Part shown: positions 7,133-25,499 of the stretch, one piece after another | Position numbering within the stretch: position 1 is the stretch's first letter | Layout of the letters: every line of letters starts with the position of its first letter | Assembly: GCA_027487315.1 (NCBI GenBank) | Contig: JAIYDW010000118.1 | Span: 1-43,088 of the forward strand | Length of the DNA stretch: 43,088 nt | Source: Verrucomicrobiaceae bacterium | GTDB taxonomy: Bacteria > Verrucomicrobiota > Verrucomicrobiia > Verrucomicrobiales > Verrucomicrobiaceae | Direction: 5' to 3' | The notes under the pieces: generated by a model | The model's input: the letters and a program-made list of their open reading frames with translations, nothing else | Database searches by the model: none | What the model was told of the DNA's origin: nothing | Made by a program: the position numbers and the translations under genes

Positions 7133-7579
7133 TTAGCGACCCGCCACCATTCCGTTCTGCCCGGAGTAGCTCGACATGAAGCTCGCCACGTCATCGGACT
7201 CCGTCTCAGTCATCGCATCCGCAATCCGGTTTTGCAGCTCCGTCCGCAGACGACCCACCAGATCCACACCCTTCGACGTGATCCGAACCATCACCTTGCG
7301 GCGATCATCAATCGCGTGTGTCCGCTCCATGTATCCCAGCTTCTCCAGCCGATCCACCAGCCCGGTCGCCGCCGCCGTCGAATGCCCCATCTTCCGGGCA
7401 ATGTCGGTCATGGTGATTTCGCGTGACGTTGCCAAAAAGCCGAGAAGGAAAAACTGGGCAAACGAAATGTTATCCCGGTTCAGCTCCTTCGACAGATCGA
7501 GCAGGAACTCCCGCTGGCTGAACAGAATGAAGTCTGCCAGCTTGGCGTGGTCCTGTTGGTTTTCTATGTTTCCAGTCAT
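7133..7579 (-). CDS. MarR-family transcriptional regulator
   Basis: The 148-residue protein has the layout of a winged-helix MarR repressor. A helical dimerisation start (LADFILFSQREFLLDLSKEL) is followed by the DNA-binding helices in ITMTDIARKMGHSTAAATGLVDRLEKLGYMERT. The wing holds DDRRKVMVRITSKG, and a C-terminal dimer helix follows. The Asp-Asp-Arg-Arg wing is highly typical. Ligand and targets are unknown. No obvious efflux or catabolic operon adjoins it, so it may act at a distance or on itself; a possible control region lies upstream at 7613-7637. It ends at its own terminator and is monocistronic. Confidence 0.93.
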   Translation of the reverse strand: MTGNIENQQDHAKLADFILFSQREFLLDLSKELNRDNISFAQFFLLGFLATSREITMTDIARKMGHSTAAATGLVDRLEKLGYMERTHAIDDRRKVMVRITSKGVDLVGRLRTELQNRIADAMTETESDDVASFMSSYSGQNGMVAGR

Positions 7580-21347: not shown

Positions 21348-21667
21348 TCCCCTCGTCCTCGCCCCTTCCCGGTCGCCCTCCGCCCCCAAAGTAGCAGTCA
21401 CTCTCCGAGTGACCAGTCCATCATTTGCGATTGCGAATCACCTCAATCACCCCAACGCCCCCCTTCCTCCAACGCCCCCCGCCCCGGCTGGACCCTCTAA
21501 ACCCTCCCCAGTACTGTAGTTCCGCCTTTAGGCGGTCCCCCAAAGTGGCAGTCACTCTCCGAGTGACGCCTCCATCATTTGCGATTGCGAATCGCTCCAT
21601 TCACCCCTTCTTAAAACCCACTCCTGAATGGCCGCGCACCATCCAGGTCACCCATGCCTTTTCAACC

Positions 21668-23521
21668 GTGAGTCAGCCCACCGAAATCCCACACTCGAAG
21701 CCCCCCGTCCCCACCCTGGACGCCCCCTTCACCCACCTCGCCGCCTACCGCTTCGCCCCCCTCACCGACCTCCGACCCCTCCGCGAGCGCCTCCAAAAAC
21801 ACTGCGCCGACCTCGACCTCAAAGGCACCATCCTCGTCAGCCAGGAGGGCCTCAACCTCTTCGTCGCAGGCCTCCCCGCCTCCATCGCCGGCCTCCTCGA
21901 CCTCATCCGCACCCTCCCCGGCTTCGAAACCTTCGACGGCAAATACAACCCCTGCGACCACCAGCCCTACAACCGCATGCTCGTCCGCCTCAAAAAGGAA
22001 ATCATCTCCTTCGGCATCGACGGCATCGACCCCGCCCATCGCACCTCCACCAAGCTCAAACCCGCCGAACTCAAGCAATGGCTCGACGAAGGCCGCCCCG
22101 TCACCCTCCTCGACACCCGCAACGACTACGAAATCAAACTCGGCACCTTCAAAAACGCCCTCACCCTCCCCCTCGCCAAATTCCGCGACTTCCCGGACGC
22201 CGTCCGCCAGCTCCCCCCCGAACTGAAGGATCAACCCATCGTCATGTTCTGCACCGGCGGCATCCGCTGTGAAAAAGCCGGCCCCTTCATGGAGCAGGAA
22301 GGCTTCAAACACATCTACCAGCTCGAAGGCGGAATATTGAAATACTTCGAAGACTGCCAGAGCGCCCACTACGACGGCGAATGCTTCGTGTTCGACCAGC
22401 GCACCGGCGTCGACCCCAGCCTCCACGAGACCGACTCCACCCAGTGCTACCACTGCCAGAGCCCCCTCACCGCCGCGGATCAAGCCGACCCCCGCTACAT
22501 CCCCGGCGCCTCCTGCCCCCACTGCCATCGCCCCCCGGAGGACGCCCGCATCGCCGCCCTCGCCGCCCGCCGCACCGCCCTCATCGCCGCCACCACCCCC
22601 CTCCCCGGCTCCATCCCCTATGACAACTTCCGCCCCCTGAACGTCCCCGCCACCTGCGACGGCTTCACCCTCATCGAAGTCCTCCACCGCATCGTCCCCA
22701 AAATCTCCCCCGCAGACTGGCTCATCCACTGGCAGGAAAACCGCCTCGTCGATGACGAAAAACGCCCCCTCCCCATCGACGTCCCCCTCCGCGCCGGCCA
22801 GCGCATCCTCCACCGCCAGCCCGCCATCCAGGAGCCCGACGTCAACCCCGCCATCGACCTCCTCCATGAGGACGAAGCCCTCATCGTCCTGAACAAACCC
22901 GCCCCCCTCCCCATGCACCCCGGCGGCCGCTTCAACCGCAACACCCTCGACTACATCCTCCAGCAGGCCTTCCACCCCTTCAAACCCCGCCCCGCCCATC
23001 GTCTCGATGCCGACACCACCGGCCTCGTCGTCTTCACCAAGACCAAGCACTTCGCCGGCATCTTGCAGCCCCAGTTCACCCGCGGCCAGATCGAAAAAGC
23101 CTACCTCGCCCGCATCCACGGCCACCCAGAAACAGACACCTTCGACTGCCACGCCCCCATCTCGGACGACCCCGGCCGCCTCGGCACCCGCAGCATCGAC
23201 GAAAGCACCGGCCTCCCCTCCCACACCCGCTTCCACGTCCTCGCCCGCCACCCCGACGGCACCGCCCTCGTCGAAGCCCACCCTCAAACCGGCCGCACCC
23301 ACCAAATCCGCCTCCACCTCCAGCACCTCGGCCACCCCATCCTCGGCGACACCACCTACCCCGCCGCCCCCACCACCGCCACCACCCTCACCCAGCAAAC
23401 CACCACCCTCCCCCTCCACCTCCACTCCCTCCGCCTCACCCTCACCCACCCCATCACCCAAGCCCGAGTCACCTACACCACTCCAGCCCCCTCTTGGGCC
23501 GAATTGACTTATTCTGCTTAA
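21668..23521 (+). CDS. fusion of TrhO-type tRNA uridine hydroxylase (rhodanese) and RluA-family pseudouridine synthase
   Basis: Residues about 20-300 match TrhO (YceA), which hydroxylates U34 of tRNA: FTHLAAYRFAPLTDL, GTILVSQEGLNLFVAG, a rhodanese domain (VTLLDTRNDYEIKLGTF) and the active-site loop C195-T-G-G-I-R-C201. A CxxC...CxxC ribbon follows (QCYHCQSP, ASCPHCHRPP). Residues about 330-617 match RluA pseudouridine synthases: an S4-like segment, HRLDADTTGLVVF with catalytic Asp447, and QTGRTHQIRLHLQHLGHPILGD. There is no stop or frame break between the halves. The frame extends upstream into the repeats; GTG 21668 is the only sensible start. Both halves modify RNA uridines, so a bifunctional tRNA enzyme is likely. 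Confidence 0.88.
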   Translation: MSQPTEIPHSKPPVPTLDAPFTHLAAYRFAPLTDLRPLRERLQKHCADLDLKGTILVSQEGLNLFVAGLPASIAGLLDLIRTLPGFETFDGKYNPCDHQPYNRMLVRLKKEIISFGIDGIDPAHRTSTKLKPAELKQWLDEGRPVTLLDTRNDYEIKLGTFKNALTLPLAKFRDFPDAVRQLPPELKDQPIVMFCTGGIRCEKAGPFMEQEGFKHIYQLEGGILKYFEDCQSAHYDGECFVFDQRTGVDPSLHETDSTQCYHCQSPLTAADQADPRYIPGASCPHCHRPPEDARIAALAARRTALIAATTPLPGSIPYDNFRPLNVPATCDGFTLIEVLHRIVPKISPADWLIHWQENRLVDDEKRPLPIDVPLRAGQRILHRQPAIQEPDVNPAIDLLHEDEALIVLNKPAPLPMHPGGRFNRNTLDYILQQAFHPFKPRPAHRLDADTTGLVVFTKTKHFAGILQPQFTRGQIEKAYLARIHGHPETDTFDCHAPISDDPGRLGTRSIDESTGLPSHTRFHVLARHPDGTALVEAHPQTGRTHQIRLHLQHLGHPILGDTTYPAAPTTATTLTQQTTTLPLHLHSLRLTLTHPITQARVTYTTPAPSWAELTYSA

Positions 23522-23524
23522 AAT

Positions 23525-24028
23525 ATGAATCCCCGCGCAGAGATCTGGAACGTGCTTCACGACGGTGGTGTCGCGGAGATCGATGGGGTAGTTCCAGGAG
23601 AGGTAACCATCCGAGTGAACATTCCATATTTGCGGCAGATGTTTTCGGACGACGGTGAGGACATCATTGTCCAACTGGGCAACTGCACGAGCCTCACGAT
23701 GAAGATTTGGAATGAGGATGTTACCACTGATGATCCAAAGCGCATCGCAAGCACCGATACGGTGATCCTGAGCACTGACTCAGAGGATGTCCCGGTTCAC
23801 ATCATCACGACGCTTGGAGAGCTGGACATTGATTTCGAGGAGTTTTCGTTGTCGCTCGACGACGGGACATCGATTTCATTCGATGAGCTATGCGACGCTT
23901 GCGAGAATTACTGGAATCGCTGGGAAAACGAAGACAAGAAGCAGAACAAGGTGGTGGTCGACAACCGGCTACCCGCCCCGAGTCCCAATGCCCCTCCTGA
24001 AACAACCCTTAACCCTGTTGCGGAGTGA
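23525..24028 (+). CDS. acidic orphan protein of unknown function, cassette-like
   Basis: The 167-residue soluble protein (MNPRAEIWNVLHDGGVAEID) is acidic and beta-rich: VTIRVNIPYLRQMF, DIIVQLGNCTSLTMKIW, LGELDIDFEEFSLSLDDGTS and a helix FDELCDACENYWNRWENED. I do not recognise a family; size and charge would suit an immunity or regulatory protein, but that is a guess. It begins 3 bp after the TrhO-RluA stop yet differs in codon choice, with abundant G-ending codons on the otherwise G-poor + strand. Its last codons overlap an attC-like hairpin at 24007-24065, the layout of an integron gene cassette. Confidence 0.75.
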   Translation: MNPRAEIWNVLHDGGVAEIDGVVPGEVTIRVNIPYLRQMFSDDGEDIIVQLGNCTSLTMKIWNEDVTTDDPKRIASTDTVILSTDSEDVPVHIITTLGELDIDFEEFSLSLDDGTSISFDELCDACENYWNRWENEDKKQNKVVVDNRLPAPSPNAPPETTLNPVAE

Positions 24029-24065
24029 CGCTCCCGGTAGCCGGTGCCACACCTCGACGTTAGGC
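24007..24065. other. putative integron attC recombination site
   Basis: GTTAGGC (24059-24065) fits the R' core GTTRRRY, and CCTTAAC (24007-24013) matches its complement GCCTAAC at 5 of 7 positions. Between them lies an imperfect palindrome: GTTG/CGAC, GG/CC and GTG/CAC blocks pair with single mismatches and a possible extrahelical A, around CCGGTAGCCGG. Total length 59 nt is normal for short attC sites. It overlaps the stop codon of the preceding gene, as in cassettes. No integrase gene is in the window and the R'' box lacks the usual first purine. Confidence 0.5.
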
Positions 24066-24082: not shown

Positions 24083-24550
24083 GTGAAAAAGTCGCTATGG
24101 ATTCTCCTTCTCGTCTCAGTCGCCATCCTTGCCGCATTTCTGGTTTTGCGTTCGGTTGGTCAGCGTCTTTGGGAACTCAAACTCTGGGGTCCATACACCG
24201 GCGTTCTCTACAATGGCAGCATCACCACTAGCCCGACCTCTGTGCTGACTATTCCCTCGCACGGACAATTGGAAGTTCACGAGTTGCAGTCCCACACCAA
24301 CCCTGTCGTTCTGTTGCGCTCCGAAAGCGGAGACATTCAGTGGTCTCGGCTTTTCCTCCCTGAAAAGAAGCTGCAAGATGGCACGATTGAGCACGCTGGA
24401 TTGCGAGAGTTACGTTTATTGAGGTGGGAGCCGCGTAGCCCAGATTCAGTTGTCTTCGTCAGTTGCAATTGGGATTGGGGCGGCAAAGAGCGCGGCTTGA
24501 TCGAGCTCGATGCCGATTACGAATTCAAGAGTTTCAGTTTGTCTTGGTGA
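24083..24550 (+). CDS. single-pass membrane protein of unknown function, cassette-like
   Basis: From GTG 24083 the protein has 155 residues: KKSLWILLLVSVAILAAFLVL is a single N-terminal membrane helix or uncleaved signal. A soluble domain with WELKLWGPYTGVLYNG, LTIPSHGQLEVHELQSH, IQWSRLFLPEKKL and FVSCNWDWGGKERGLIELD follows, mostly beta-strand by eye. No family is recognised. An ATG at 24044 is in frame but lies within the attC-like site, so GTG, 18 bp beyond the R' box, is preferred. Base composition is balanced, unlike neighbours, matching the preceding orphan gene. No second attC is visible after the stop. Confidence 0.7.
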   Translation: MKKSLWILLLVSVAILAAFLVLRSVGQRLWELKLWGPYTGVLYNGSITTSPTSVLTIPSHGQLEVHELQSHTNPVVLLRSESGDIQWSRLFLPEKKLQDGTIEHAGLRELRLLRWEPRSPDSVVFVSCNWDWGGKERGLIELDADYEFKSFSLSW

Positions 24551-24584: not shown

Positions 24585-25499
24585 CTAGCCAAACATCACC
24601 TCCACCCGCTCCCGATGCCTCGGATGATCCGGGTTCAAACTGTGCAACTCCAGCGTCAACCGATCCCCCATCACCCGCGCCTCCACCCACCCCGATGGCC
24701 GCTCCGGCCCTGACGTGTACGCCACCGGCGGCAAATTGATCATCCACGGCAGCCCCTCCTTCGGCTCCTTCACCTGCCAGTGATGCGTGTGCCCATAAAT
24801 CAACGCCTTCACCTGCGGCGCCCCCTTCAACACCCGCAGCAGCTCCTCCGTATCCTTCAACCCGCCCGGCTTCTTCCCATCCGCTCCCACTGACTGCGGA
24901 TCGTGATGCACCATCACAAACGTCGGCTTCTTCGGCAGTTCCCTCAAAATCCGCTCCAACCACCGAATCTGCCCGCCACCCAACATCCCGGGAGGCGCGT
25001 TGACCACATCCAAAGAGTCCAGCAGCACCCAGTTCACCCGCGCGCTCGACAGCACCGTCACATGCTTGTCCGCCAAAACCGGATCCACGCCCGGTTGCGA
25101 ACTTACCGCCCGAAACTTCCCCCGGTCATCATGATTCCCCAGCCCGCAATGCACCTGCACCCGCTCCTCCGCCAAAGGCTTCAAACAGCTCAGCAACTGA
25201 CTGTAATCCTCCATCTGCCCATCCAAAAACGCACAGTCACCATTGATCAAAACCCCATGCGGCTTCACCCCCACCCCAAGCACCTGCTTCACTGTCCGCC
25301 GCAGATTCGTCGCCATCACCACCCCTCGCGACTCCAGCGCCTCATCCGCCGCAATGTGCGGATCCGAAAGCAACGCCCAAAACTCCTCCTTCGCTTCCCC
25401 TGCCACGCCTTGCCAAGTCCAAAGACTCCCCATCCCTGCCGCAAAACTCCGGCGAATCCATTCGCGGCGACAGGCTGACGTAAACAAACTCGTAGGCAT
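24585..25499 (-). CDS. exported calcineurin-like metallophosphoesterase
   Basis: The 304-residue protein has the full two-metal signature: LLSDPHI (Asp46, His48), LINGDCAFLDG, LGNHDDRGKF, MVHHDPQSV and YGHTHHWQV. The N terminus RREWIRRSFAAGMGSLW resembles a twin-arginine signal, so it probably acts in the periplasm. Such enzymes hydrolyse phosphomono- or diesters; the substrate is not evident. It reads towards the cassette-like gene (convergent, 34 bp between stops) and lies 56 bp downstream of the glgC stop on the same strand, so co-transcription with glgC is possible. Confidence 0.9.
   Translation of the reverse strand: MPTSLFTSACRREWIRRSFAAGMGSLWTWQGVAGEAKEEFWALLSDPHIAADEALESRGVVMATNLRRTVKQVLGVGVKPHGVLINGDCAFLDGQMEDYSQLLSCLKPLAEERVQVHCGLGNHDDRGKFRAVSSQPGVDPVLADKHVTVLSSARVNWVLLDSLDVVNAPPGMLGGGQIRWLERILRELPKKPTFVMVHHDPQSVGADGKKPGGLKDTEELLRVLKGAPQVKALIYGHTHHWQVKEPKEGLPWMINLPPVAYTSGPERPSGWVEARVMGDRLTLELHSLNPDHPRHRERVEVMFG

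Follow-up and report, generated by a model that had tools for sequence, protein, structure and literature searches.

How did a gene with an integron-type end come to lie beside a tRNA-modification gene, with no integron next to it? The DNA analysed here, which we call the window, is the whole of contig C9 (43,088 nt) from a draft genome of 5.87 Mb in 256 contigs. At the locus, a trhO-rluA fusion is followed by two orphan genes, ORF1 and ORF2, all three on the plus strand, and then by a metallophosphoesterase gene on the minus strand (Table 1). The initial annotation proposed an attC-like site of 59 nt at the end of ORF1. We find that ORF1 and a longer attC site form a solitary integron cassette whose limits are well defined, that the event is of a known kind but with unusually complete evidence, and that the cassette's arrival beside RluA can be explained fairly well, the RluA stop codon offering a GTT at which it would have been inserted.

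Table 1. Features of the locus, of related attC sites and of the corresponding slot in the sister genome (G001)
Feature	Position	Strand	Remarks
TrhO-RluA fusion gene	21425..23521	+	UPF0176_N, rhodanese, PseudoU_synth_2; upstream host gene; start codon uncertain
Complete gene cassette, 548 bp	23512..24059	+	TTCTGC 5' end, ORF, attC to G of R' box
TTCTGC, the cassette's own R' half	23512..23517	+	Left junction 23511/23512
Cassette ORF1, 167 aa	23525..24028	+	C-terminus encoded by attC
attC site, 125 nt	23941..24065	+	R2 cmsearch, geometry test, family covariation
R'' box GCAGAAC	23941..23947	+	Exact reverse complement of GTTCTGC (cassette 5' end, TTCTGC)
attC left arm	GGT 23953-23955; extrahelical G 23956; GTCG 23957-23960	+	
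9-bp stem	CCGGCTACC 23965-23973 / GGTAGCCGG 24036-24044	+	L''/L' stem has one extrahelical G
attC right arm	CCAC 24047-24050; ACC 24051-24053	+	
R' box GTTAGGC	24059..24065	+	
TTAGGC, host (right) half of target	24060..24065	+	Right junction 24059/24060; aligns with CTAGGC of G001
Second orphan gene ORF2, GTG start	24086..24550	+	Host flank; 83% aa identical in G001
Metallophosphoesterase, convergent host gene	24585..25499	-	Flank anchor; 94% identical in G001
Near relative of the attC site, contig C109	L028:6636-6761	-	
Near relative of the attC site, contig C79	L027:1444-1569	+	
Near relative of the attC site, contig C76	L029:6158-6281	+	
DUF6896 gene in G001	L058:97-537		TTAGGC at left junction, CTAGGC at right

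The initial annotation was right about the 3' end of the site. Its R' box, GTTAGGC, is the sole copy in the window with both strands counted, and the attC does span the stop codon of ORF1 (TGA, 24026-24028). The element itself is longer than was thought. A blastn search with the 59 nt first proposed (24007-24065) retrieved related copies on contigs C79, C109 and C76, and folding gave a longer hairpin whose left arm starts at GCAGAAC, so that the 59 nt are the 3' part of a 125-nt attC. The stretch CCTTAAC (24007-24013), which had been taken for the R'' box, falls in the hairpin loop; it is loop in all related sites, where the AAC is not kept (CTTGGCA in the C79 site; alignment A5). The true R'' box, GCAGAAC, is also present in the integrase-adjacent C7 array and in the C72 array. 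As a complete attC, the 59-nt piece is rejected on the extent of the covariance match described below, on the loop alignment and on a shuffled-fold test, in which shuffled sequences fold as well as it does (DNA z = +0.80). Among the related copies, the R' of the C109 site is degenerate (GTTGTCC), and the peptide encoded in the left arm of this site resembles the ORF1 C-terminus (44.7% over 38 aa).

For the covariance check that had been advised, we used a model, R2, built from eight attC sites of the integrase-adjacent arrays on contigs C139 and C7 of this genome only, the window site being kept out of the training. It replaced R1, an RNAalifold-based model that held 8 pairs only. The arms of R2 were placed and its loops trimmed by hand, and its E-values, such as the 1.5e-6 (33.4 bits) obtained by cmsearch for positions 23941-24065, are rough; this match is the sole one in the 43 kb. 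Training sites score 53-79 bits, and the other array-external sites about 20-50. In a fixed-geometry pairing score the site reaches 20, the next best place in the window 12.5, and 300 second-order Markov simulations at most 18. Across 39 distinct sites, nearly all from this genome, 88% of the pair cells are standard, with heavy compensatory changes. Their covariation score is 0.528, versus 0.132 for shuffles and at most 0.113 with the partners slid, a figure that leans towards the model because the alignment was fitted to R2. The R2 alignment, the geometry and the covariation all describe an imperfect hairpin with an L''/L' stem and an extrahelical base. Its boxes are of the RYYYAAC-like (R'') and GTTRRRY-like (R') kind, and R'' is fully complementary to TTCTGC, the half that stands at the 5' end of the cassette itself.

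Could a GC-rich palindrome that ends an ordinary gene, for instance a terminator or a REP-like repeat, look like this by chance? Taken by itself the 59-nt piece has an ordinary fold energy, and exact RYYYAAC-N-GTTRRRY motifs are in no excess across the genome over a reversed-pattern control, so that such motifs carry no information on their own. Nor is the minimum free energy of the 125-nt strand, folded as DNA, below that of shuffles (z -0.24), though the predicted fold does hold the expected long stem, and an Rfam scan gave no relevant match. Against such a coincidence stand the R2 match by a model not trained on the site, a geometry score above all 300 simulations and the compensatory changes among the array sites, together with two results given below: the distant end of the cassette was predicted exactly, and ORF1 homologues occur in integrons. 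The attC resemblance is not chance, and we hold a coincidence to be extremely improbable.

Once the R'' box is known, the far end of the cassette can be read. When cassettes are integrated in an array, the final six bases of each R' are part of the cassette that follows, and the R' half that a cassette owns forms its 5' end. We tested the resulting rule, that the complement of R'' is the R' at the start of the same cassette, on 27 consecutive site pairs from the arrays of this genome; 24 agree exactly and all 27 within one base. In the window, R'' predicts TTCTGC, and the 1600 nt upstream of the site contain a single copy, at 23512, 13 nt before the ORF1 ATG. With nine copies per 43 kb, 0.006 would be expected in 30 nt. 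The cassette is therefore 23512-24059, and the mismatch between R'' and R' at its right end is explained as well, since the TTAGGC found there belongs to the host. The left end abuts RluA and coincides with the loss of homology to the sister genome.

That genome (G001), a metagenome-assembled genome of the same genus (Verrucomicrobiaceae bacterium isolate CE-Jul18-43), is the nearest relative with the same locus. It shares with the window RluA, ORF2, the metallophosphoesterase and the sequence beyond, and only the gene in the slot is exchanged: RluA ends in ...CACTTGTTAGGCC..., followed by a DUF6896 gene (146 aa, E 7e-32), then ...ACGCTAGGC..., ORF2 and the metallophosphoesterase. A comparison of the 3' flank with relatives had been suggested as a way to find an empty site; the flanks do align, but the slot of the sister genome is occupied by this other gene. 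No synteny of rluA and metallophosphoesterase was seen among the other relatives searched, and the same-genus genome G002 is without it. A survey of family-level loci, some of whose rluA 3' ends had been taken from the wrong strand, does not enter this comparison. The sister genome is thus the only syntenic relative, two occupied slots are known, and the search turned up no genome in which the slot is empty.

The empty site can be reconstructed. Joined without the cassette, the window flanks read ...GACTTATTAGGCC..., in register with ...CACTTGTTAGGCC of the sister genome, and RluA would end in ...ELTY before the stop, as compared with ...DLTC in the relative. The register places the insertion point at a GTT (now ATT) in the rluA stop codon. 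This GTT is neither attI nor attC (reconstructed ACTTATTAGGCC; ACTTGTTAGGCC in the sister genome), and R2 found no attC at the corresponding target of the sister genome. At present the RluA frame continues for a few codons inside the cassette (...LTYSA before the stop), which supplies the TAA at 23519-23521. Because this stop ends 3 nt before the ORF1 ATG, ORF1, predicted to be promoterless, is probably read from the rluA transcript.

Where could such a cassette come from? ORF1 has no match above cut-off in Pfam or NCBIfam and none in plasmids and viral contigs, and homologues occur in 4 other genomes among 289 of the phylum (G225, G198, G246 and G285). The homologue of G225, a distant genome of the phylum, is 64-65% identical and begins directly after an attC with the R' box GTTCTAC, in a complete integron with at least 15 attC sites and an integrase 42.6% identical to that of C139. 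The G198 homologue (26%) sits in a repeat array, and that of G246 (36%) has an attC beside it; around the one in G285 no attC context was noted. Since the first three homologues sit in or beside arrays or attC sites, ORF1 is a gene that circulates in integrons and belongs to the cassette-gene pool. The G225 homologue (L116:6510-8326), inside its large integron array, is interrupted by a transposase-like insert.

The initial annotation saw no integrase and no array. For the 43-kb window a profile search bears out the first point, as it found no integrase there. The genome, however, has two integron integrases above the TIGR02249 cut-off (C139, 368 bits; C7, 337 bits), each adjoining an attC array, and the recommended search for intI and further copies located attC-like sites on 16 contigs, more than 40 in all, including one further site each on C76 and C206, a count that is a lower bound, R2 having scored 150 of 1219 candidates genome-wide. 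The genome holds many attC arrays. Further ones lie on C72 (42000-52989, L121; 10 sites), C158 (L122; 6), C172 (L119; 3) and C154 (L120; 3), contigs for which no integrase match is reported. A third integrase-like gene (C206:223-1113, L016) scores 228 bits, below the TIGR02249 cut-off, and lies close to one end of its contig, which also carries attC-like sites some 15 kb away. There is also a second solitary cassette, on contig C10 (site 7151-7239, minus strand, L123), of about 420 bp with a 98-aa ORF; it is bounded by GTTCTCC and GTTCTCT, its left end lies 16 nt past the stop of an 861-aa ORF, and it faces a convergent gene. An integron integrase at E <= 1e-50 was found in 15 of the 38 genomes searched, this one included, and integrons are on record in this phylum (PMC8618304).

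On this evidence, we consider it likely that an integron integrase, acting in trans, inserted one intact cassette, 23512-24059, into a chromosomal target of non-classical type. The bottom strand of an attC folds to a hairpin, and IntI cuts at the R' box and joins the end to a target GTT. Here the target would be the G/TT of ACTTG/TTAGGC at the end of trhO-rluA, where TTAG carries the stop codon, and the product would read host...ACTTG / TTCTGC-ORF-attC...ACG / TTAGGC...host. The integrase may have been that of one of the genome's own integrons or of an earlier relative; with integrases present in the genome, the window attC is a candidate for recombination by them. The right junction is G/TT (24059/24060). 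The left one is A/TT (23511/23512), where the sister genome has G/TT, and one must therefore assume either that G became A after insertion or that the target was less strict.

The A at the left junction, and the need for some vehicle to carry a cassette between genomes, could also speak for another route, in which homologous recombination, a transposon or a phage moved the cassette in place of direct recombination by IntI. Yet both ends of the insert coincide exactly with the IntI crossover points and neither carries additional sequence, and we regard such a route as improbable. Somewhat less improbable, but still unlikely, is an eroded array in which ORF2 is a former cassette that lost its attC and the other cassettes and the integrase have decayed. 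The spacing of about 20 nt between TTAGGC and the start of ORF2 is what a cassette ORF would show, ORF2 has almost no counterparts elsewhere in the phylum, and CALINs are commonly taken as degraded integrons (PMC9024848). But neither an attC nor a remnant of one follows ORF2 in the window, where 34 nt separate it from the next gene, or in the sister genome, and ORF2 as a second cassette was rejected for want of an attC after it. Moreover, the window has no integrase, and its flanks are syntenic with the sister genome save for the one exchanged gene.

Insertion of a single cassette in trans, the reading that we prefer, can be set beside known systems. As in sedentary chromosomal integrons, the ORF fills the cassette, R'' is complementary to the cassette's own 5' end, and the attC combines R''/R' boxes, an L''/L' stem with an extrahelical base and a variable terminal loop. 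Unlike integron cassettes, this one is solitary, without an array or an adjoining attI or intI, and its attC encodes the C-terminus of a protein. Like a CALIN, it has an attC without an adjacent integrase and is potentially mobilisable in trans. The initial label of a solitary, CALIN-like cassette nonetheless holds in its first half only: a CALIN in the strict sense comprises at least two attC sites without intI, and the 43 kb contain one. A single cassette joined to a chromosomal GTT outside integrons resembles insertion at attG or secondary sites, which was reportedly described by Francia in 1993 and by Loot et al. in 2024. The latter work is cited for attG in PMC12901181, PMC12444791 and PMC11023631. 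Unlike the attG precedents, ours is a natural chromosomal case from the Verrucomicrobiota with both junctions and a sister allele, and a stop codon with the complete GTTRRRY sequence serves as its target.

The sister slot invites a wider, more tentative reading. R2 found no attC after its DUF6896 gene, and so only the junctions point to a cassette origin for that gene; it is possibly a cassette whose hairpin was deleted. One might then imagine, as a possibility that we favour less than not, that the trhO-rluA stop codon (...ACTTGTTAGGC...) is a reusable docking slot in the genus, where two species independently captured different cassettes with no integron beside. The host frame would be kept and the newcomer would gain expression, and cassettes would therefore leave their arrays to become ordinary co-transcribed genes, later losing their attC.

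Most of what is known about cassette insertion outside integrons comes from laboratory assays and from clusters whose origin is unclear. We describe a natural case beyond the usual model bacteria, for which both ends are resolved to the nucleotide, a reconstruction of the empty site is possible and the sister slot holds a different gene. IntegronFinder 2.0 by default reports CALINs with at least two sites (PMC9024848). Since the far end of a cassette can be predicted from its R'' alone, there is a simple test for single-attC calls, which the defaults of detection programs drop. The locus shows a route by which integron cargo can join the fixed genome.
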